Position numbers and translations under genes: made by a program
Source of the DNA: Ectocarpus siliculosus
Lineage: Eukaryota; Sar; Phaeophyceae; Ectocarpales; Ectocarpaceae
Direction of reading: 5' to 3'
Length of the DNA stretch: 24,623 nt
Assembly (NCBI GenBank): GCA_000310025.1
Contig: FN649740.1
Span: 2,131,756-2,156,378, forward strand
The notes under the pieces: model-generated
The model's database searches: none
What the model was told of the DNA's origin: nothing
Seen by the model: only the letters and a program-made list of their open reading frames with translations
In this document: one piece after another, positions 2,032-23,285 of the stretch
Numbering within the stretch: position 1 is the stretch's first letter
How the letters are laid out: every line of letters starts with the position of its first letter

Positions 2032-4306
2032 ATGCTCGTCGCAACGGTAGCTCTCAGGGGCGGGGTCTTGGCCTCGTCAAACCCTCTCGAGCTCAACGGG
2101 GGGTCTTGCCTCGCTATGGCGGGCAAGGGTTGCGTGGCGCTGGCGGTGGACCGGCGATTCGGGCTGGAAGGGCAGCTTGTCTCAACCGAGGCGAAACGCG
2201 TGTTGAAGGTACGGCTTTGGGAGGGAGCTGCACACCTGCTGTTTGGCACACGGCTTCAAGCACACCTTGGTGATGGGATAGATGTGTCGCGTATTCCGCC
2301 AAAGTAGTCGAAGCTCTGGGTGCTCGAAGTCGGTGAAAACAGTGCTTTGTGCGGCCTTTGTACAGCACACAGCACTCGCGAACGCCTAGGCACTGGAAAG
2401 GGAAACTTTAGCGTTCACAACCTACGAACAGAGTGTGCACGGGACTGTCAACTTTGACCTCACTGCTGTAGTGGTTTTAGCAGTTGATGGAGAGTTGCGA
2501 ACCCTCTTGCTCTTGCAGAGAGCAAGGTGTCCTCACGTTGGGCAACGAGAATGAAAGTGGGGCACGTGTAGGACCACGTGGACAGCAGCAGGACAGGCCT
2601 GAAGAAACCAGAGAGACGTAATGTGAAAGGAAGTGAGACCAGGCGAGGACAACCTACACGGGACTGTGAGCCAACTGGATACCTGGTGTACAACAGTGCT
2701 GTTACATGAAAACCTTGTTTGGGTATTGAATGGTTGTTTTGGCGACGACCCAGGTTGTTGTGTGGCGCACCCTCTCCTGGAAACATCACGGAGCCGAGCT
2801 TTGGCCTCTCGTGTCAGCTACCGTAAGAGGCGGAGAGATGGCACGACACCCCCCCGAGACCGACTTTCCAAGCTCGATTGCTCCACAGCCAAGGGGGGTG
2901 CGGAAAGAGTCCGATGCGTCTGCGGAAAGCCGTCGATGCAATCTTTCCAAAACCACTATTGTTGGTGTTATTACAATCTTGGTTATGGAGTAGTCGAGGT
3001 CTAGGGGGGTGCCATCTCGCCGCCTCTTTTGGTGTTCTTTTTCTCTCTCCCTCTCTCTCTCTCGCCCCCCCCCCCTCCCCCCCCCCCTCTCTCTTTTTTG
3101 AACCCTAGCAGTCCTCAATCCCCCATCTCACACACACCACGACAGGGCACACCTCTGAAACATACACCGAAAATTTTCATCCTACAACCTGCGCGCATAA
3201 CACACACACAGGTCAACGGCCAACTACTTTGCGGATTCACGGGGCTGTGGACGGACGTCTTGACGGTGATGCAGGACCTGTCCTCGGAGGTCGCCCTCAA
3301 GAGCCTGGCGGAGGCCGACCGCCCCATCGCCCCGGCGGCGCTGGCGGGGCTACTCTCTACCCTGCTCTACTCGCGCCGAGGGAGCCCGTGGTTCGTGGAG
3401 CCGATCGTTGCGGGTCTGGACCCCCGGGGCAGGCCGTATCTCTGCGGGCAGGTGTGTTCTGGGCTGCTGGTGTATGTACTTCAGACGGGGGGGTGGGCGA
3501 GGCGGGGCCTGTTCTATTCGAAAACGTGTTTGTCATGGGTTTTCACATTGGTCGAGAGATTTTTCCAGGTCGTTCGCCAAGGAGTTGGATGTTCTCTCTG
3601 TGGCCCCACCACAGCAGTAAACAAGCCTGTCAAGTGTCAGGGCCATGGGAAAATGGCGTCTCCGTGAAGACAAGAGACAGCCTGGGCGCTGTATCCATTT
3701 TTACGCATGTTTTTGCAATTTTTGCACAGCCAGGGTTATCGGCGTGAGTGTGTGCCCATAACCACGGCGTTGTGAGATGCTTCGATCCCTCTGCGAGCCC
3801 AGGAGGAAGGTTTGCCGATCACGCAAGGTTTGGAGGGAAGGACTCAGTCGGACATGTTTTTGGTTGGCCTTTTGGGTAAAGCGGTACCATTATACTTGTA
3901 GAACAGCACCATTCAATAACCACATGTCCAGTTGGATTCTTGGGGAAGACAGACGATAGTGCCCACAACTCAAACATGCAGAATCAGCTAATGTTCTAAT
4001 TTTTTTCTGCAAGTCCCTCACCTGAGTAGCACCTGTCCCCCGCCCTCCGCCCCCCCACAGGACATACTTGGAGCCCCCGTAGAAGTGGACGATTTCGTGG
4101 TGGCAGGTACCTCGGCGCAGTCCCTGTACGGAACCTGCGAGGCTTTCTTTCGGCCGGGGATGGAGCGGGAGGAATTGTTTCGGGTGGCTTCCCGCTGCCT
4201 GCTGTCGGCGCTGGAGCGGGACTGCTTGAGCGGGTACGGGGCGGTGGTTCACCTCATCACCGAGGAGGGCATCGAGACGCGAGAACTCACGACTCGGATG
4301 GATTGA
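2032..4306 (+). CDS. PSMB3: 20S proteasome subunit beta type-3 (non-catalytic), three exons
   Basis: PSMB3 is one of the four non-catalytic beta subunits of the 20S core. It forms part of the beta ring and has no peptidase activity. Exons are 2032-2208, 3212-3451 and 4061-4306, with both introns in phase 0 and GT..AG borders; the joined protein is about 220 aa. Family hallmarks in order: NGGSCLAMAGKGCVALAVDRRFG (residues 22 on), LCGFTGLWTDV, EPIVAGLDP, VDDFVVAGT, LSGYGAVVH and the C-terminal LTTRMD. Alignment to the animal protein is gap-free across the exon 1/exon 2 junction. The residue where catalytic beta subunits have Thr1 is Ser after GG, as expected for an inactive subunit. The animal protein is 205 aa. 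The extra 15 residues all precede NGG, so the ATG at 2032 is a best guess, and a 5' intron or later start is possible. Intron 1 carries an inverted-repeat element at 2825-3028. Confidence 0.93.
2825..3028. mobile_element. MITE-like inverted-repeat element in PSMB3 intron 1 (copy B)
   Basis: The left arm (from 2825, AAGAGGCGGAGAGATGGCAC) is matched in reverse complement by the right arm ending at 3028 (AAGAGGCGGCGAGATGGCAC), with one mismatch in 20. Homology continues inward through a C-run, AGACC and CTCGA..ACTCCA. The left arm has an extra 11 bases (GACTTTCCAAG) that the right arm lacks. Total size is about 200 bp with no coding capacity, as in a MITE. No target-site duplication is obvious. 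Its inner arm (GACCGACTTTCCAAGCTCGA) matches the arm of the element at 19494-19930, so the two appear to be one family. Confidence 0.6.
3042..3102 (+). repeat. Polypyrimidine (CT)n/C-run tract in PSMB3 intron 1
   Basis: A stretch of about 60 bases that is almost all pyrimidine: CT dinucleotides, then two long C runs, then CT and a T run. It begins about 14 bases after the inverted-repeat element and lies roughly 110 bases upstream of the exon 2 acceptor. Confidence 0.8.
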
Positions 4307-6388: not shown

Positions 6389-9300
6389 TCATGTGAGGAC
6401 GGTTGAGGGATGGTGCTCTCCGTCTCGCATCGCTGCCTGGAGCCGCCTCGCGTAGGCACCGGTGATGCCGCCGATCTGTGTCAGGAGCTCCTTCGTGTCC
6501 GAGACGTTCTTCGCCTGTTCAAAGGAAGATCGACAGAAAAGATAGGAATCCAAGGGTTTTTATTATATCCACTTCGTATGTATGTACCGCACACACGAAG
6601 CGCACGACGGAACATCAGTCCAGGTCGTCACTGACTGTGGAGATTGCCTTAAACGAAGAAAGGGTTGCGTCTCCCCAACGATTGCCGAGGACGGGCCCCG
6701 CCTTTTCACGTCACGGTGAGCTTTTCAGGGCGAGCTTAACGGCAAGCAGGGCACCACTTACCGCACAAGCAAGCAGATATTGCTGTTGCTTCTAACGCGT
6801 ACACGTTCGTCGGCTCAAGGAAGGGCACCGTAGTGCGCCGAACTATATCCAGCACGCGAACAACAGCAATCACGAAGATAACCCCGACGCGTACCTATTT
6901 AGGAACACAATGTTTGATGTTACGAAATACTCACGACTTCAGCCTCCACGTTTTCCTTCTCCTGGCGGTACTGATCTAAGACCGCCTGGGATTCCTCCAT
7001 CCGAGCATGTGCCTGCGTCAAATTAAACCAAAAAGACAAGCAAAACGACAACAATGCCCGCAACAAGCACGGAAACAACAGGTCACACACACCACAGCAG
7101 TCGATTGTTTTCTTTTCGAGCAAGGCGTTTTATCGCCTACATATTTCTTGGCTGTCGCTCGTCGTTCCTCATCTCTCTTACCGGTACAGGTAGTTTTACG
7201 GGGGCTACCCACTATTATATAGCATGATCGGGCTGTGTTCAACAGGCAGAAAAATCCATTGAAGGTCAAGAAGGGTCATCCTCTCGGTGGTATACTCGGG
7301 ACGACGGCAACTTGGAGTACGTGATGGAAGCACAAAACACGGCATATAGCGTGAAAATCACCTGGGATTGGTGTGCGAAGGGGCGAGAATGGGATCAACC
7401 CGGAATCAGCGCGCAACAAGACTATTGTACCGCCCGCGGAACTGAAAGGATTGACTCCCTGACATACATGAACCATCGAGGAGAGCATATTTAGCGAAGA
7501 TTCTCAAGGATTCATGTTGACCAACGGAAGCACGTTCAAAAGAAAACTCTTGTGGGTACAGCTCTCCCTTTTAACAGCCTTTCTACGCCACTCCCATTGA
7601 ACCCACGCAATGAAAACAATAAATTTGCTGGTTGACCTTGTCGCGTCTTCTTAAAATGAAGTGAGTGGATATTTTGCTCTTCAATTTACTTTTGTGTTGG
7701 GAGCGGGGAAGCTAGGAGCGAGCACGCACACCCACCTCGTTGTAGTGAGCCTCATTCTCAGCGATGGCCGCCCTGATCGCCTCCATCTCCCCCGCCATCG
7801 CTTCCGTCTTGAAGGCCGCTTGCTTGCGAAGGTGGGCAAGCTTTTCCTCGAACCTGTTTCAATTTCACGCGTGTTCGTGGTTGTTGTTGTTGTTGTTGCG
7901 ATACCGCTGTGCATATTCTCACCATTCCTTGCAAGAGAAGAAAGGCGAGACCCGAAACAAACAAAACGAGAGAGTCCAGAGAACACGCGAAGGAGAGAAA
8001 AGGAAGGGCAAAACCTCGCTTTGAGTAAGCATAGGGCAACCACTGTCCACTAAGAGGGCATGGATGACTTCGACACAAATACCCAAAAGTGGACAGGGGA
8101 TTTCAAATACCCCGCTGACAAGAAACGCTGCGATGAATACGCGGAACAGGTAGCACCATACGCATGGGCATGAGAGACACGCGCGTACGTATGCATACAC
8201 CCGCACAGGGCGTGCGCGAAGCTACGACGTGCTTGCCTGACACCTGGGCTCGTCCCATTCGTCTAATGCTAGCTAGCTCCCTGGGAGAACCATGGTTTCT
8301 TGTTGTTAGACCGATCGTACACTATGTTGCGAGGGGTCAGTCGATTGGCACAGGTCAACGCTAGCAAACAATCACACTTCGCCCAGATATCATGACCCTT
8401 AGAAGCGCTTTCCCGATTTTTACCGGCACTGAGACCGACAGCTTTTCGCTGGTCAGCCGGTTGGCACAGACAGGAAATACGCTAACAAACATACCCACCC
8501 AGATCATGGCGCTTCGAAGCGTTTTTCCGTTTTTTCCCGCACTGAGACCGACGGTTTCGTACTCATCAGCCGGTTGGCACACGACAGGTCAACGCAAGCA
8601 ACCAAGCGCAACTAACACTCCTCACCGGACCAGCCTGCGCTGGAGCTCTGCCTTCTCCGACGACCTCGTCGCAAAGTCGTTCCTCTTCTCGTGGATCTTG
8701 TACTGCGTGTTCTTCACCTCCCTCATGGCGGACTCCTGCTTGCTCAGCTCCGTCGCCGCCTGCCAGGAATTATAAGTTTATTGGTTGTGCTTGGGTGTTG
8801 TGCTGGTGTTGTTATCTACGCCTATCGATAGGATCAATCGCCCAGCTGGCGATCCTTCAAGTCTACGGTCGTGATTGGATGCGTCGCGGCGCTCTTGCGT
8901 TTCTTTTCGATCAATCGTCAGTGCCGGCAACCGAATGTTTCCACGCAGGCCATGTCGTGCACGAGGCGCACCCTTGGGTCCTGCCCGCCCCCCACCGCTG
9001 TCTGACGCTGGAGAACCTCTCACGAGTTCTCTCTCTGTGATACACCAAAAAACGGTACCGCTGCACCACAACACGCCCGGTACTTCAACTGTGATGGCGC
9101 TGCCGTACAGTACCTCTTCGATGTTAGCCGTAGCCTTGGCAAGCTCTCTTCGCGCCTTGTTCATCACCACCACGCTGTGCTTGAAGCTCTGGGCTTTCCT
9201 CGTCTCCGCCTCCACCTCCGACAGCTCCTACAGTAAACATCCGCAAAGGAGTTCCAGTAAGTAAAAAAAAAACATCGCAACGGCAACAACAGGCAACAGC

Positions 9301-12300
9301 AAGAACGAACCGCGAAGAAAGTCACCGGCACCTGAGAAAGACACAAAAAATAGTTCCATCCATCGAAATAAACTCATCTCAACGACCACAGCAGCAGCAG
9401 CAGCGGCAGCAGCAAGAACGGGCTATGAAGGAAGCCACCAGCACGCGACAAAAAAGCACCAAGTATACGGGACAGCATCAACACGACAAAGACGACGACG
9501 ACAACGACAACTATGTAGGTGTAGCAGCAACAGCAGCATACCTGCTCCAAGGATTGCTGAAGGTCGGATACCTCCCTCAGGATGCGTTTCGGCGAGCTGA
9601 CCACCTGCGCCTGGAGATTTTTCTTCTCGAGCTGATACAACATAGCGTTAGAAGAAATGAAACAGAGGAGAGAGAGAGAAAAAAAAAAAGGTAAACAAAG
9701 ATAGCAATATGAGGAAGGTGCTGATGTCAAGTCAAAAGCCTGTTGCTAGTCCAGCCCCCCTCCCCTCCCCTCCCCCTGAAGGAGCGGTATCACCGACTCA
9801 ACGCTATCATTTTCCTCACCACTCCGATGCCTGGATTCTCCCCAAATCATCAACACCCCCGCCCCCTCCCTGTCGGCCGGCCTTCAATTTCCACTCCGTG
9901 CACCCCCTCAACGCCCACATACTCCGGAGCCCCCTTCCCTCACCTCTGCCCGGTTGAGCGTAGCCTGGGCGGTGGCCACCCTGTCCTTGATGTCGTTGTT
10001 ATCCTTCTTGACCCTCGCCAGCTCCTCTCGCGCCGTGCCGACGCTCTTGGTGAGCTCTACCGTCTTCTGCTTCGCGGCCTCGTGCTTAGCGTTAACGGCC
10101 TCGATAGCCTGAGGGCATCCAGCAATCAATCAACACGCAGACGCCTGCTGAGCGAAAAACGCTCATTCTGTTGCGGTACTGCTGTAGCGTGTGCCCTGCG
10201 TCTGCAGGTTACTCCGTCACCTCCTTCCGTCCTCTCTTTCCTCTCTGTCTGTCTGTCTGTCTCAATACAACGACAGTCAGCCGCGAGAAAACCAAACCAG
10301 CCTAGTCCCCGTCAAAATTTGGCTTCAACGTCAAACGCGGATGGCACACAAAGAGTGAAAGCCACTCGTCGGCCTAAAAACAAGAGACACTATTATACCT
10401 TGTTTTTCTCCGCCATCCTGTCCTGGATGTCCTCGTGCTCTTCCTGCAGCTTGTTGTTCCGTTGCTGGGGGGCACGCGAACAGCGGGAGGAGGTTTACCG
10501 GGGGTGTATGCACGTGCACCAAACAAGAAACACGAACGAGAATTTATAAGTTGGCATTTCACCGCCTTTGGACCACGTGATTGCTGGTCTGTGGATAGAC
10601 GCGGGACATTGGGAGAAAGCCCTTAAGGCTCGTTGGTGTGACGAACACGACACAACCTCACACACATGATCACGCCCAAACCGGTGATAGTACAAGATAG
10701 CACGGGTGACGTGCACAGAAACATATGTAGTAGAAACACACACATACACACAAAAACATACCAGGAGGGAAAACGAGAGCGAAAATATCGGAACCGAATC
10801 GATTGGTACATCGCGTATTAAAACCACTGCATTTTTCGTACCGCAAGAAGCACTACAAACAGCGCGCGACGACGCGTAAAACGACAGCAACACACGCACC
10901 CAATCAAAACACAGCAGTATGGCACATCGCACACAACATGCGAACCACCGTATGGAAGTGTTTTTTTTTCGGTCCATATACCTGTGCGGCCGCGACAGCT
11001 GCCGCAAGCCTCTGCTTCTTGGCCATGGCGTCTAGGTAGAGGTGCTCCTTCCCCTCCTTGAAACGGACGAAGTTGATCACCGCGCTGAGCTGGCGCCGGA
11101 GCCTGCGTTTTTGTTTCGTGGGATGAAAAGAAAATGCGTTCTTCTGGGAGGGGGCGGGGGGGGGGGGGGCATGTTCCCGGCAACCAAATGTCCCAAACCC
11201 GAGCATGCGGTACTTGACGACACGACAAAAAGCGTCGGGAACGATAGTTCAAAAACTGGATTTGTCTTGTGGCTTGAGGAGGACGCAGAGCTACGTCGTG
11301 ACCACCGGAGTAAGATGGAAAGACCGCGGCATGCTCGTGCTGCCTCGAATTGTCCTCTGGCTTGAGGAGGACGTAGAGCCACGTTGTAAAACCACGACAT
11401 GCTCGTGCTGCCTCCCTTCGACATACATGTAATCGTTGCGCGGGACATGGCACCTTAGCGGTAAAAACAAGGTGACGCCACGAAATATACCACTAGAAAC
11501 CTTAAACTTGTAGGAACCGGCGAACAGCAAGTACCGCATTTTTTGACGTCTCTACAGCACTGTAAGATCAATCAACGTTGTCAACATCTTGCCACTGTAC
11601 ATACCAAATCAAGCGAAAGCGGTAAACGAGAACCAACCTTCGTTCGAAAGCAAAGCCTATTGAATTCACAGCACCTTTTTTGATTGGGGTCCGACATATC
11701 CTTGAGGGCAAAGTCCTCGATCCGTGAGATTCTCATCATCCTGCACACGTTGCGGAACAGCGCCAGGAACGCGATGCTCTCCTGCTCGGTGTTCGAGGAC
11801 CCCGTATTGTCGTTGCGAGGAGGCCGGGGTTGGGTGGGTTGGTCGCTGTCAAGCAATTTCATTCGCACAGGCTGCACACGCGGTCAGCAGGGTCATAGAA
11901 CGACCAAGGGATAACGTTCCTCACACCATCGCTGGGGATGGGGGACTAGATCACGCAAAGCCGGCCAGGCAACGGATCATGCCCAACAAGAGCAACAAAA
12001 CGCGACAACGAAGGCCACCATCATCAACCAAAACAGCGAAAGCACCATCCATGTATGCATACGACAGACAGGCTCTCACGTCGTGCAGCTCAGGATAGGT
12101 CAAGCAGCCCAGCCCCGCGAACACCGGCTGGCTCATCTCCTCCTTGGTGACGCCGAGCGTCGTCTCGACCAGCCTCTCGAACAGCATCGTCAGCTGCGGC
12201 ACGTGGTCCTTCGGGCTGGCCAGCATCTGAGACAAGCAAAACACCAACGGCGTACATACGAAAAAAATATACCGGTATATTGTATGCATATGATGCTAGG

Positions 12301-14030: not shown

Positions 14031-16777
14031 ATGGTGCTGCGCGAGCTGTCGGAGTCGGAATGGCAGCACTCGTTCGTGCCCGTCTTGGCGCTTGCGGGGT
14101 CCGCGAACAGGCTCGGTAGCGCCCCTGGGGGAGGAGGCGACCGCGCGAGAGAGCACGCCGTGGGAGACGTGAAGCACATCATGGTGAGAGCAGGACAAAC
14201 AAGTGCAAAGATCGGCAGACCCTCTGGCTGCAAGAGGAGGCGATGGAGTGGTTTTCTATGCACCGATCATGAGGCAGAGGGTGACATCCGTCCTCGTGCG
14301 CGCGTATGTACTACATACATCGAATAACAAACGGTACAAGTTTTAGTCAGCAGCAGCAGCAGTCGGTGTTTGGCGCGATCTCTCTCGCTGCTGCCCGCGC
14401 GTGTTTAGAGCCGCCGCCGCTCTTGCGCTGCTGTCACCGGATCGGCCAGCCGCGCACCAAGAGACACGAAGGACCAGCCGCCGACCACTACCAAGAAAAA
14501 GCGTGGTGACTTTTGTGCCGGCACCAAACACACACCCCTTGTCCCGTTTGCTCGACACCAAAAAAGCGCGATTCCAAAACAAAATCTTGCAAACGCGCCT
14601 GCTGCTACTCCGCTCCCGTATCAACCGCCCGCCAGGATAAGACGATCGGCAGGAGGTGTTGCCGGATCTCTGGCGCGGTCAGCGCCGCCAACTACCTCGA
14701 GGTCCCGCGGGAGGCGAGGATTGCCCCTCTCAACCTCACCGGCCGGTTCGTTTACATTCAGGTACGCTTGGTCAGAGGATACGCACGCTACAAGGTTTTA
14801 GCCCCAGCAGCAGCAACTGCAGCACAGCAGCATAGGCGATGCATTGTACAAAAAGCATGCACGTTGTTGTTTCGCAAGTGCAAGTACTGGTAGGGTCCAC
14901 ACGCTCCTTGCGTGTTCAACTCGGTATCAATGGACATGAATAGCATTTACATCGCCATTGTTCTTTTGCGAAACCTGTTGCTATGTGCTTCGCCCCCTCG
15001 ACCGTTGCCGCTGCTACAAGAAGGGAAGATAGATTGTAGATTGTGGTGTGTAGTGTCATATGCATACGGCGCCGCGGCGGATATTTCAAGATATTTCCGT
15101 ATGGTAGATTTCGAAAACGCCTTGAGAGCGGCCGCGTTGCCATGTTGCCATGTCCATGTAGGCCTCTCCGACTAAAACGAGTATGTGGTGGTAGGTTTCC
15201 CGGTGTTGGCTTGTTGGAAGCCGTAGGGAGCCTTCCCTGGAGTGACTTGCAGTGCAGTAAAAGTGCCATTGATGTCTCGCGATTGAGCGTCGTGTGCATG
15301 GGGTCCTGTTGTGCTGGCTGATGGCGAACGGCAGCACCGAGGTTTTACTACTCTGCTTTAGGGGCTTGTCCATGATTCACCACCTTGTTTTTTTATTCGA
15401 TCTGTATGTGTTGCACAAAGTAGCCCGAAAATCGTTAGACTTGTGTGCTCTCGCGGCTCGTGGCAAGCAGCAGCCAGGGGCGGCGTCTGCGCCCAGCAGG
15501 GGTGGAATGGGAACCTGCCCCGCCTGCCCACGGAGCGCGAACAAGCGACTAAATAAAGCCACTCCAACCCCCTGCAGCACGCGCCTTCGCTTTGAGAAAC
15601 ACTTCCATTTCCACACACCGCATGTTCATATTTAGTACAATTGTACAATGAGAAGAGAAAGTGTGTGTAACGTAGAAAATTCGTACGTCCTGTGCCACTT
15701 GCGCCAAAAACTCTTCTTGAGTTGTACAGGACACACAGCACGTGTATTGTACCACCATCCTTTTTTTTGTTTTTCACGGCCTCGCAGAATAAGGTCTCCC
15801 CTCCGCAAAATGCGTTCTCGTGAGAGAAAAACGCAACAGTCCACAAAATAGGATAGCCCGGCCGGGCATTTTTTTAGTGTTGTTATTGCCTTACTTTCTC
15901 CCGGAGAGATCTATCACCATGAGATTTTTTTTGGGGGGGGGATATCGCCCTCTCCCCGACAAAATCTATCGCAATGAGAAAAAGAGACCTGCCTTCCGCG
16001 TATATGCCTCTTGGTCCTGTCTGTACACACCGCATACTGCACCGCGGAGAAAAAGGGACACACGCCGCCCACACGGCGGTGGTGCGCCGCGTTGAATGCA
16101 CAGGCGGGCGGCCGAGGGGCGAGGGGTATGGGACTCTCGTCTCAGCTCCGCGCACAAAAAGGGGTGCAACGGTTAACAAGGCCACCATCAAATATGCCAG
16201 TTCTTGTAGTCCTTGGGGGGGGTGGGGGGCACTCATATCCTTGCATGCCGTAGTCGTTAGCCGAAAACAGCCGGGACGGAGCATGGTTGATTTTCTTGGG
16301 GAGAGGGGGGGGTGCTTGGTCGTAAGGACGACATGTCGCTTCTCCCCTGTGGGTGTGCGTGTGCCGGTGTATATCTTGAGCTTGTCTTTGGCGGCTTCGC
16401 TGCCCACGTCTGGATCCCTCGCCCCATCCTTGGCTCTGTCTGGCACCTGTTCGTGATGACCGCCGCCCACCACTACGTATTTACCGTTCCTTCGGCACGC
16501 CCTTCGCGCCGAGCGGTTGGCGGGGGATTTGGCGCCCCTCCCCCCGGCCCCTCTCTTCGGTACGCCACCAGCATCATCGCGGCGTGCTGGCCACTTGGTC
16601 ATGCGTGTTATGTTTGCGGCGTACTAAGCGCACCCGGGGAGAGAGATGGCTCGGCGCTGGAGGGAGTTGCTGCAGTAGCGCGACCCTACAGAACCGGAAA
16701 CGCCGTTCCATGGAACGAACGCGTCCTTCCATTTCGATATCCAGAAAGACGGGAACAAATCCGTTAGCGCAGCAGTG

Positions 16778-16816
<39 letters not shown>

Positions 16817-19800
16817 TGGACAAGCGTCACGGCTTGATGAATTGGAACTAACCTCAGCCTTTCTTTGGTTTAGTTTTTTTTTGGCTGAATGACTGAAACG
16901 TCTGGGCACACGGGTTGAATCAAAAGCTTTTCAGTCTACCTCGGTCGATTGACGGGTGGTGGAAACAGACCGCAACTGCTCTGGATATATTTAACAAGGA
17001 CGATGTATACTCACACCTGCTAGGTAGTCTTGAAGAGATTGCGAGTGTTTCTCTGCGCCGCTTTTGACTTTTGTGCAGGTGTTACCGATCGTTCACGTTG
17101 CTGTCTTGTGACCGTTGGTCTCGCTCGTCGTTGCTCACGGAAAAACGACCGACTGTGCACAGCCGGCACGGCCCCAGCGCGTAAATGCAGCGACGATGCG
17201 ACAGGGGGGCGCAAAACGATGCCGCCTCGGTAACACGTGCAAGGCGCGCATGCGCGTTTTAGAGAGAGTCTTTTTTCGCCCCTGAGACACGCAAAATAGC
17301 TAGTTACCAGTACATGTGTATTTCCTGGTTGATGTTTTGCTTGTCGCTTGTACGTTTCTTTTATGTGCGGGTGGATGCTTGTCTATACGCTTGTCTCTCA
17401 CCCCCCCCCCCGCAGAATGTACAGCAGCACCAAGGGCGGGCGAACACAGCACAGTTGTAGCTGTTGTAGGTTTTCAGGACGCCCGTGGGGGTCGCCTCTG
17501 CAAGCGTTGTCGACGCCTCTCCAAGTTTTTCGCGCCGCCAGCGTTTTGGTATCTCCTACTAGTATGTTGTAAGCGATGATCTGCTGCCCTGTGTACCGCC
17601 TTCAGTCTCTCTTGTGACGATAGCCGATGACGGCAGTGTTGGCTTTTTCCATGTTCTGGAAAACCCGACTGTGCTCTCTTTGATAGGGTTGACTTTTCCA
17701 TGTGCCTAAAACGACCGACTCTGCTCTGGTTGCGGGACGGGTGGCTCTTCTTATCCCCGGTGTGGTGCTGAACTGCTTGCTACAACGGGGGTAACGAGTC
17801 CTTCACCTAGCCGTGCTTGTCGCGATAGTTGCGAACGTCCAGACACGGTTGCATTGATCGTCGACGGCGCAAGGAGACTTGAGAAGTGTAAAAGCTCAAG
17901 CAACGAGATGTTTCACGTGTTTTTTTGTGTGTTTTTCCATCAGCAGAAACCGCCGACAGCCGTGCATTCAAGCTGTCTATCTTGAAACTCTCCTCCACCT
18001 TTTCCTAGAGCACTTACTTGTTTTCGTGTCGTTTGAAACCGGGGCTTGGATAGGTTGCCGCATGATCACCTACGATACTTACTCCCCCCCCCTTGTGCTG
18101 GAATGACTCCCGTCATAGATTCAGCGGTAAGATAAGCAAAGGTTGGGTGCGCATGCGACAGTGTTGGTTTTTCTTTTCTTTTCGCTGGTCCGCGATGTTA
18201 TTTTCAGCAGCTCTTGTTTTTTGTCATCCTAGTTTCTGTCCGTTCTTTGCATCGTCTACCGATCCACGGCCCTCCCAGCTGCCGTGCGATCTCATTACGC
18301 GCCGCAAACACACCATGCCTTGGGACCGTTTTCCCCGGTACCAGCCCAGTTCGAGCTGTCGGTCATCGACAACGGACCACATGTTGTCCAACATGCCATC
18401 CCCCCAACTATCAAAGCTTTTTTTTGTTTTGATTACGTCTGCGTCAGCTTTCCGAACAACGTCTTTTGTTTTGTGCCCCTCACCTGGCAGCAGTCATGAT
18501 GTCATCTCGAGCCATATAACTAAAACATTTCTTGTTGCTTGCTCACTCATGTATTATTTTTGGAAGCTACTGCTGTACGGGCGCGCGCCGCGACGTGATC
18601 TAAACCCGCCTGTTGTTGGTTTCGTTCCACCGCACCCCTCGTCGGAACCTCGCGTGTGCTCTCTCTCCCGTTTCTTGCGGCTGGTTCTCACCCGTCCCTC
18701 CCCGCTGCTCCCCCGCGATACTGTATGGATCGACCAATCAGGTGCGGCCAATCGGCGACAAGGTGATGACCTTCCACCTCGACGTGCTTGACGCCGGGGG
18801 CAGGCCGGAGCGCGTGACCTTCAGCACCCTGTACTCAAACCGCCCCTCGACGCCCACCCGTAGAGGCGGCGGCGGCGGCGGCGGGTCTTCCAAGCGACCT
18901 GCTTCTGCCGGGGACGCCGGAGGCGGCCGAGTCTCGACGACGACGACCCTCAGCAGGAACACCAAGCACGGCAACGGCGCTGCCTCCACGGCGGTAGCGT
19001 CAACGGCGACGGCGTTGGAGGCCTGGAAGAGCGGGGGGGTCGGCGGGGGCGGGGCCGGGTGGGCCACGACGACGATAGGGGAGGCCGCTACGGCCGACGC
19101 GGCCGCCGGCACGGCGCTGGTGAAGCGGGGCGGGGCCCTGAGGTACCCGGTGTCGTTCGATACGTCGCGCTCCCGGGGGTGGACGGTGGTGGGCATCGAC
19201 ATGGTGGCCCTCATGCTCGAGGGGGGCGGGAGGGCCGGGGCGGCCGGGGGGAGGGAGTACGGGGTGCTGAGAGGGGTGAAGCTGGGGTCGAACATGGTCG
19301 TGAGGGGCGTCTACGCGTCGGACTGCGTGTACTCGCCGCACACGCTGCCCAAGGAGATGGCTTTTCGGATCCCGGGGGGAGGGAAGGACTGGGAGACGGC
19401 GTACAACTGGCTGTGGCTCCCGGAGGTGAGAAGGAGGCTAACACGGGCGCGCTTTGGGGCCCTAGGCGCGCTCCCTTGTAACAATAGTACCGCAGGTGAC
19501 ACAAGGTGTCACACCCCTTGGACCGATTTTCAAAGCTCGAGTACTTCACGACGAAGAGATGTATACGTCATGACGATACGTTTTCGGAAGCTCTCCAGGT
19601 GAAGTTTATCTCTTTCGAAAAAACAGGCTACAGTACTTATTCGGCCTTCTCCTTCTTGAGGGCGTTGATGAGCTCGGTAACATCCTCTGCGGACCAGAGG
19701 TAGGTGGGCACGCGCTGGTGCACCTTCTCCGGGTTGATGTCCATCACGCGCTGCGTGCCGGTCGTTGCCATGCCCCCGCCTGCGGCGTGACAAAAGGGAC

Positions 19801-22800
19801 CAAGCAAGCGGACGACCAACGCATCAGCCCGTTCCAACGCCGTCATTTTCGCCGCCGCCACTCCTTGTACAATGTGGAGTAATCGAGCTTTGGGAAGTAC
19901 GCACAAGGGGTGTCATGTCTTGTGTCACCTACACATACGGGTACACGTGCATCAAAAACGCCCCTGCGCTGCTGCTGTTGATGAACGACGGGGGGGGGTA
20001 CAAACGCTCGGTAGCTTTTCAGGGAACGGGAGCATGATGTACCCCTTCCCCTTCCCACCCTAAACTTGGACCCGTTTTTGACTCCTCTCCTCGCGCACCT
20101 ACCTGCTCACAAACGGCCCGCGTACACCCCCGTCTCGTTGACAACTCATTCGTTCCAAAACAGGTTCCCGACGAAAACGCTGCCCCGCCGGCCGACGGCA
20201 CGCGTCCGACGACCCGCCTGGCGTGGCCCCCAGGGGCGGACTCCCCGACGCCCTCCGTGGCCGCCGCCAACGCCGCCGACGCCCGGGGTCGCCGGCGGAT
20301 GGAGAAGCGCCACTTCTTCGCCGAGCCGGGGACGGTGGGTAGGCTCCTGGCGCATGAGGATAACGACGGCGTCGGCGGCGGTGCCGAGGAGGAGGGTGCG
20401 GTGAAGACGAAGGGAAGGGCTTCGACCCCTGGCGGCCGCGGACGAAGCGGCGCGCCCGGGATCAGAGGGCGGCCGACCGGCAAGGGTAGGAGGGAGTCCA
20501 GCGGCGTCTCCGTCGGAGAGGGTTTCCCTCGTACCCCACGAAGGGCAGGTGGTGCCGTCGCGGTCGGGATCGCCGCCTTGTCTCCGGCCGCGTTGGGGAG
20601 GGGGGGCGGGCGCAGGGGCCAGAGCACCCCCCCGCGGCCGGTGCTGCTTGCGTCTCCGAGGACCCCGTATTCCCGCAGTCGTTGCGTGTCGCCGTTTTCT
20701 CGGTTCCCGTTGGCGAGCCCGGCGCAGATGCGCCCGGCGTCTGCCGCCGCCGGCGGCAGCGGCGGAATCCGGGGTGCTGCTGCCTCTAGCCCTAGGGCGA
20801 GGCCGACGAGCGGTGTGTGGAGAGCTCGAGAGCGATCGTTGATGGCGGCGCCGTCGCCTACGGCGGCGGTGGCCAGGCGACAAGGGAAACCCCCCGTGTC
20901 CCCCACGAGACGGAGAGTTACTGCTGGAGGGGGAGGAGGTCGAGGGCGGACCTTTTTCTTGGAGGACGATGAGGAAGACGACCACGATGATGGTGGTTTC
21001 GATGTTGGTGTTGATGTTGATGCTTGTGGCGGCGGTGATGTGGGTGGTGGCGGCGGTGGTGGCGGCGGTGGTGGTAAAGGTGGGGCCAAGAAGGGCAGCG
21101 CTTGGGATTGGACCAACGAGGAGCTCGAGGCGTGGCCCGGCGGAGAAACCGCGCCCGCCACCCCCGTGGTTGCCGTGCTGAACAACGGCGGCGAGAGGCT
21201 CACCGACGGCGACGAGGAGGAGGAGGAAGGGCGCGGGGCTGTCAGGCGTGCGGGAGCGTCACCATCCGGGGTTGTCGGGATGGATCCACCCGTTTTATCT
21301 CGCGTGCTTCCTCCTGGCCTAGAGGTGGAAGTGTTGTGCTTGGTTGGATTCGAACGGGGGGCACGTGTATCATATCTGATGGTGAATGTACGTCACAATC
21401 GATTTATAGGCGGTGCTCTCCTTGCCCAACAGGTCCTTTCCGTAACTTTTTTGATTCCGTTTGCGTACTACAGCTTCTGCTGCCTGGTGCACCCGGCCAT
21501 TGCTTTTCAAGCTCTCCCCCCGGGGGGTCGAGAGCCTCGTGCAGCTTTTCGTGCTCTTGTGTGTGTTCAATCTCTCGGTGCGTTTTGCATCGAAAGGATT
21601 TTTGCCTGCCGTGAACTCTTGTCCTACTTATTACCTCCCTCACTGCTGTCTCCCTCCCCCCCGCGGACGCACACGTACACAAAGCACATGTAACACCCCC
21701 CCCCCTCCCGCGCCCAAAAAACCCCGCGCCCTCTTAGGCGTCTCGCCCAGATCCGCCAGAGTTCGATCCGGACCCGGCCCTCCGCCTGGAGCGGGCGCTG
21801 TGCTACACCGGGGGGGACCTCCCGGGCAGCACCACCGTCACGTTCGTCGGAAGAGGGGCAGAGTTCATGGCGTTCCCCTGCAACAACGTGATCGTGCTGA
21901 TGGAGACGCCGGTGATGCCGGAGGCGGTTTTTTCGAGGGATGGGCCTGCCGGGATGGATGGGGGCGTTGGCGCGGAGAAGGAAGGGGAGGAGGAGGATGA
22001 GGAGGAGAGAGATGGGCTGTTGGCGCTGCCGCAGCCGGCCCCGGCTCCGCACATTTTCCTGAGGGGCCACACCGACACCGTTACGCGCCTGCAGCTGAGC
22101 CATGCCGGGCACCTGCTGGCGTCCGCACAGGGTGATCCACTTGGCGCTGCTGGTGAGCGCGTGTTTTTTGCTTGACGTCCTCCTGTGCGTAACGGGATCG
22201 AGAAAAATGGTTGCTTGCATGTTATTGTTCGTGTTTCAGTCGAAAGCCAGCGTGAGAGACGAAAAACCGACTCCTTGATACGCCTTTTTCTTTCCGTTTC
22301 GATGGGGTAGGATTTTCGCGCAAGCCCCTCTCAGGTACATCCCAAAAGAAGACGCAACTGACGGCAATAAAGAATGCAACACACCAAAGCTGGGCTTCGT
22401 GCGCCGCTTGCGGGCAAATCCTGCCCCGTCGAAACGGGGAAAAAAAGGCGAATGAAGGAGTCGGTTTTTCGTCTCTCACGCTGGCTTTTGGCCCCCGCTG
22501 CTTGTACCGTACCGCATGTGGCCCACGACCGGTACACTCGTCTGCTTCACAAGAACTTGACAAGAACTATCGTTTTACGAAACCGTTTTGGGCGGACAAT
22601 AGACGCCAGGACGATTTTTTTTTGTGTCTTGATCGAAACTAACCCCCGCATACTCTCTCCCAAACAGGCGGTCACGGCATCATTCGCCTCTGGAACGCGA
22701 CGTCCCTAGGCCGCCGCTCGCCGGCAGACTGCGGCAGCGCTAGGGCCGCCGGTGGCCGAAGGACGCCTCTTCGCGAAGGCGGTGGTGGCAAGTGCGCCGC

Positions 22801-23285
22801 GCATTTCATTGCTCACCGGTGGGGGGTGTCGTCGATGTGCTTCAGCTCGGACGATCGGCTGCTTTGCACCGTCGGCGGCGACGACCACCGGAGGACTCAG
22901 GTGTGGCGTTGGCCTTGGCCTTGGTGTTGGAGCAGGTATTGGCAGCAGCGTTCATGTTAGTGTTGGCGTTACCGTCGGTGTTGGCGTTAGCGTTGGCATT
23001 GGTATTCGCGTTGGCGTTGGTGTTGGCGTTGATGTTAGCGTTGATGTTAGCGTTAGCGTCGGTGCTGTCGTTGGCGTTGCCTACCGGTAAACCGCACCTT
23101 TCCTGGTTGGTTTCGTTGCGCCCGCGCAAGGTGATCGTGTGGGACGTGGCTCTCCTGTGCACGGCGAGAGCGGGGACGATCCACGGCGCCGGGTCTGGGC
23201 TGGCGGTGGTGGCGCGCCAGATCAGCGACTTCCCCATCACCAAGATGCTCTTCAGCCCTTTCGAGAAGCTGGTGCGAAAAGCTGT

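Follow-up and report, generated by a model that had tools for sequence, protein, structure and literature searches.

Pack-TYPE elements are non-autonomous Class II transposons in which DNA of coding genes has been captured between terminal inverted repeats (TIRs), as they are defined in PMC8903248. Among the matches listed in the literature, gene capture by TIR transposons is reported mainly in plants, with further cases in fungi and C. elegans. According to the main text of a survey of Ectocarpus (PMC12477816), the Mariner-Tc1 elements of this brown alga amount to almost 12,000 copies, mostly non-autonomous, many short non-autonomous DNA elements lie in introns, and giant non-autonomous DNA transposons carry other genes and are likened by the authors to Pack-MULEs. 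That main text names miniature inverted-repeat elements in full and uses neither the acronym 'MITE' nor the words 'captured' and 'gene capture' (PMC12477816). The matches listed in the open-licence literature included no small TIR element from a stramenopile that carries an exon. A small gene-capturing TIR element seems to be little described in the stramenopile lineage.

The window analysed here is the whole stretch of 24,623 nucleotides of Ectocarpus siliculosus contig FN649740.1 (assembly GCA_000310025.1, positions 2,131,756 to 2,156,378 of the forward strand), and all coordinates given are those of the window. It quite probably holds an old non-autonomous TIR transposon of 437 nt, which captured the last exon of a class 1 fructose-1,6-bisphosphatase (FBPase) gene and landed in antisense orientation in an intron of a WDR90-like gene. 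The parts of the locus are as follows.

19426-20163, plus strand: host intron of the CFA20/WD40 (WDR90-like) gene, boundaries read by eye
19494-19549, plus strand: left terminal inverted arm, 56 nt, from the arm alignment
19550-19636, minus strand: A+T-richer stretch past the stop codon (GC 0.42 over 19550-19638), probably captured 3' sequence or transposon interior
19637-19779, minus strand: putatively captured terminal exon from a class 1 FBPase gene, consisting of 8 nt followed by 44 codons and TAA (19771-19637), with a phase-1 entry; from PDB and FBPase_C matches
19780-19873, minus strand: probably the 3' part of an FBPase intron taken along with the exon, closing with the acceptor-like CACGCCGCAG; open frame without FBPase homology
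19874-19930, minus strand: right terminal inverted arm, 57 nt, with 44/57 alignment columns identical to the left arm

The name WDR90, given to the host gene in an earlier note on this DNA, fits the domains matched in Pfam. The exon preceding the host intron matches the end of the CFA20 domain with 27.3 bits (cut-off 24), while a second match, to another part of the same domain, is found at 14633-14776 (16 bits, below the cut-off), and WD40 matches occur at 22056-22136 and 22787-22885, both below the cut-off. The exon ends that border the intron read NWLWLPE before it and VPDEN after it. Since CFA20 together with WD40 makes up the architecture of WDR90/POC16, WDR90 is, on these domain matches, a plausible name for the host gene. 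When the PDB was searched with the exon preceding the intron, two weak matches to dynein chains (E 0.12 and 0.25) and no CFA20 relative were obtained. Elsewhere in the window, exons of a kinetochore NUF2-like gene are encoded on the minus strand at 11015-11110 and 11668-11799 (Pfam Nuf2, 36.3 and 33.8 bits; cut-off 25), to which GC3-biased minus-strand frames near 12202-12262 may also belong. The proteasome subunit family (PF00227) is matched on the plus strand, with 69.7 bits in one frame over two stretches, the best at 4061-4249, and a further plus-strand match to the same family at 2095-2211 (15.6 bits) lies below the cut-off. Furthermore, a direct repeat of about 140 nt (8335-8474 and 8451-8588) has copies that are 76% identical and overlap slightly. 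RNA families and tRNAs gave no match in the window.

The minus-strand peptide between the arms, which had been taken as coding-like, is the C-terminus of a class 1 FBPase. Its frame of 44 codons ends in TAA and favours codons ending in G or C, as previously noted, with GC contents of 0.58, 0.36 and 0.87 at codon positions one, two and three. When 3703 open stretches of 44 codons were sampled from the window, 12 had a difference between positions three and two at least as large as that of this frame (0.52), the twelve overlapping one another and one of them overlapping the FBPase frame. The Pfam family FBPase_C matches the frame with 33 bits (cut-off 27), and with 26.4 bits, just under the cut-off, where the exon is scored inside a longer open frame. 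When the 44 residues were compared against the PDB, 36 of the 40 sequences listed at E values up to 10 were named as FBPases (best E 4.1e-9), the other four, not so named, being weak matches (E 0.36 to 1), while all 35 sequences listed at E values up to 0.001 for the 91-residue open frame were FBPases, with isozyme 2 as the best (1.6e-10). Similarly, the eight NCBIfam matches at E values up to 1 are all class 1 fructose-bisphosphatases, scoring well under the whole-protein cut-offs, as expected because the query is a piece of a protein. A notable residue change is that LWS in the fragment takes the place of LGS in isozyme 2.

The limits of this homology coincide with those of an exon. An acceptor-like sequence upstream of the frame had been remarked upon, and CACGCCGCAG is indeed present at 19789-19780 on the minus strand, where it ends inside codon 45 of the 91-residue frame. 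The PDB match begins at residue 44 of that frame, with identities from G46 and G47, so that the first whole codon past the junction is the start of homology, and the alignment reaches residue 90 of 91, one residue short of the stop codon. Because homology starts at the acceptor junction and ends one residue before the stop, the segment can be read as a terminal exon together with intron sequence on one side and 3' sequence on the other. The 43 residues that precede the match show no FBPase similarity, as expected of an intron, and on the acceptor side the piece looks to have been copied from genomic DNA rather than from a spliced mRNA.

The best reading of the source is a eukaryote-like class 1 FBPase gene. 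PDB entry 2gq1, which we take to be the E. coli FBPase, matches the 44 residues at E 0.9, far below the FBP2 and FBP1 entries. A bacterial origin was considered with a 48-residue exon query, for which none of 206 pattern matches in GTDB contigs was confirmed by tblastn, and a viral origin with the 91-residue frame, for which none of 13 IMG/VR pattern matches was confirmed, both searches being limited in reach to close relatives. No match in GTDB contigs or in IMG/VR was obtained with degenerate patterns covering the HQRVPTYLW region.

Inverted arms of about 55 bp had been reported on either side of this frame, and they are present, with lengths of 56 and 57 nt, bounding a segment of 437 nt (19494-19930). 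Their alignment comprises 57 columns with 44 identities, 12 mismatches and one gap (77% identical), and gives a match score of 47. When the two halves of the host intron were shuffled apart, none of 3000 dinucleotide shuffles reached this score (mean 18.8, maximum 34). An alternative null in which a stretch may pair with itself had a maximum of 48, with at least one of its 500 shuffles above the observed score, and was set aside because self-pairing inflates it. The window was also divided into 195 overlapping pieces of 738 nt; both pieces containing the complete element score 47, and a single piece exceeds them (121). That piece holds a second inverted repeat, at 22243-22488, which lies in the same gene region and is better preserved, with arms of 83 nt (74/83 identical) that lie 80 nt apart; it looks like a MITE without evident cargo and has no blastn match to the FBPase-bearing element. 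If the arms of the FBPase-bearing element were once identical, their 12 differences over 56 compared positions correspond to about 0.126 substitutions per site per arm (Jukes-Cantor), and the element is therefore either old or had arms that were imperfect from the start. The arm pattern gave no match in viral contigs, a collection in which little was expected.

No target-site duplication was found near the arm ends, either as an exact pair of 4-5 nt or as a pair of 6-12 nt with one mismatch allowed, and at symmetric ends there is no exact pair for lengths of 2-6 and 8-11. Exact matches of 2-3 nt, among them the triplets TAC and ACC, require a choice of ends that leaves the arms unequal. The closest short pair at symmetric ends is CA (left) and TA (right), obtained when the ends are taken as GGTGACAC; it is one change away from TA, and short enough to occur by chance. 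Tc1/mariner elements have TA as their target-site duplication. Mutator-like elements have duplications of about 9 bp, with 9 to 11 bp in a few rows of a table in PMC6446971, and a comparison over 9 positions gave a match in 1/9 positions at the arm ends and 5/9 in the best shifted symmetric case. For Harbinger MITEs the duplication is given as TNA or ANT in the text of PMC12477816, and no exact 3-nt pair occurs at symmetric ends. Pfam analysis of four open frames over the element (E up to 10) gave FBPase_C as the single match, and transposase families were absent both from these frames and from the six-frame scans of the window. The element has TIRs at both ends, coding-gene DNA between them and no transposase of its own, as Pack-TYPE elements do, with the target-site duplication as the missing character, and because no convincing duplication was found it is not formally filed as Pack-TYPE. 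By analogy, its best reading is that of an element which may resemble a plant Pack-TYPE element in its way of working. Of the earlier proposal that a MITE-like element acquired a 3' exon from a different gene, the acquisition is supported, and is made specific as the terminal part of a class 1 FBPase gene, whereas membership among MITEs or MULEs is not established for lack of a convincing target-site duplication.

Several observations count against a transposon, namely the lack of a target-site duplication, arms that are 77% identical, a parent gene not having been seen, and a window in which no other copy of either arm occurs, the two arms being accompanied by chance-level short matches alone. 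The FBPase fragment might instead have arrived by ordinary duplication or repair-mediated insertion, with a MITE inserting in the same place at another time and the two never forming one mobile unit, a history with which both the want of a convincing duplication and the identity of the arms in only 44 of 57 columns would agree. Yet the recognisable exon sits entirely inside the arms, separated from them by 87 and 94 nt of unassigned sequence, and no FBPase match occurs outside them, so that two separate events appear unlikely. The open frame, its strong third-position GC bias and the acceptor-like site would equally suit the 3' end of a real minus-strand FBPase gene nested at this locus, one of the conditions under which the earlier note would have given up its proposal. 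Against this, six-frame Pfam scans, which covered the window in pieces overlapping everywhere except at 19930/19931, gave no FBPase match besides the exon at 19637-19779 (threshold E 0.1, raised to E 1 for the 4.7 kb of minus-strand sequence upstream). The enzyme exceeds 300 residues, and more than one match would therefore be expected in those 4.7 kb, although very short or distant exons could escape. A nested gene is disfavoured within the window on these grounds and would leave the flanking inverted arms without explanation; we consider it extremely improbable.

A captured fragment may also have been put to use. The RNA of the host intron might form a hairpin whose loop, antisense to the FBPase mRNA, would give rise to small RNAs or to antisense control of the parent gene, and in the account given in PMC13317346 gene pieces captured by maize elements act as reservoirs of siRNAs that affect donor genes. 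The 437-nt RNA folds more stably than each of 100 shuffles (z -4.9). However, the interior without the arms gives a z of 0.27, with 55 of 100 shuffles as stable, and thus shows no sign of structure beyond the arms, from which the stability derives as in any TIR element. The open frame is likewise weak as a sign of constraint or use, for when neutral decay was simulated at 13% substitutions, 58% of the copies kept the frame open, and 6.7% did so once an assumed indel rate was added, which is compatible with a decaying pseudo-exon. Such an exaptation is highly improbable, and a function beyond passive cargo is unsupported. Wider in scope, and very doubtful, is the idea that small TIR elements of a family not yet named capture genes and shuffle housekeeping exons, here that of FBPase, among the introns of a stramenopile genome, and that some copies, this one included, lie antisense in introns where their hairpins might supply small RNAs directed at the parent gene.

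The reading as an old TIR transposon with a captured FBPase exon starts from what is directly supported, namely the inverted arms, the identity of the FBPase C-terminus, the start of homology at the acceptor-like junction and the window's single FBPase match. From these we infer a history in which the end of a resident FBPase gene, comprising the end of its last intron, the last exon, the stop codon and some 3' sequence, would have been captured between transposon ends, possibly by the route that PMC13317346 describes, of neighbouring insertions and aberrant excision. A transposase acting in trans would then have moved the element in antisense orientation into the intron of the WDR90-like gene, where, as the divergence of the arms suggests, it may have decayed as spliced-out intron sequence. 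At present it would most likely be passive cargo that is read in reverse as part of the host intron and removed by splicing.

If this reading is true, a small case with an identifiable donor exon would show the moving of exons in an independently multicellular lineage, the brown algae. It also supplies a definite arm sequence and a definite parent gene as starting points in the search for more cases. As far as the description in PMC8903248 extends, the element shares with plant Pack-TYPE elements the character of a Class II non-autonomous element, with inverted ends around the coding DNA of an unrelated gene, no transposase and a position within a gene, while it differs in having no convincing target-site duplication or assigned superfamily and in its brown algal host. 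Mariner-Tc1 elements of the TcMar-N1_Ec32 type (PMC12477816) are likewise short and bounded by TIRs, a comparison made by description, but the 437-nt element holds an FBPase exon, whereas the passages of that survey that describe the former mention no host exon. Given the abundance of Mariner-Tc1 elements in Ectocarpus, such an origin would be unsurprising, although it is not claimed. The giant elements of Ectocarpus, as portrayed in the same main text, are also non-autonomous DNA elements of a brown alga that bear genes without homology to transposases; they are generally longer than 10 kb, and most of their genes have no known function (PMC12477816), in contrast to the 437 nt and the recognisable exon of a metabolic enzyme found here.
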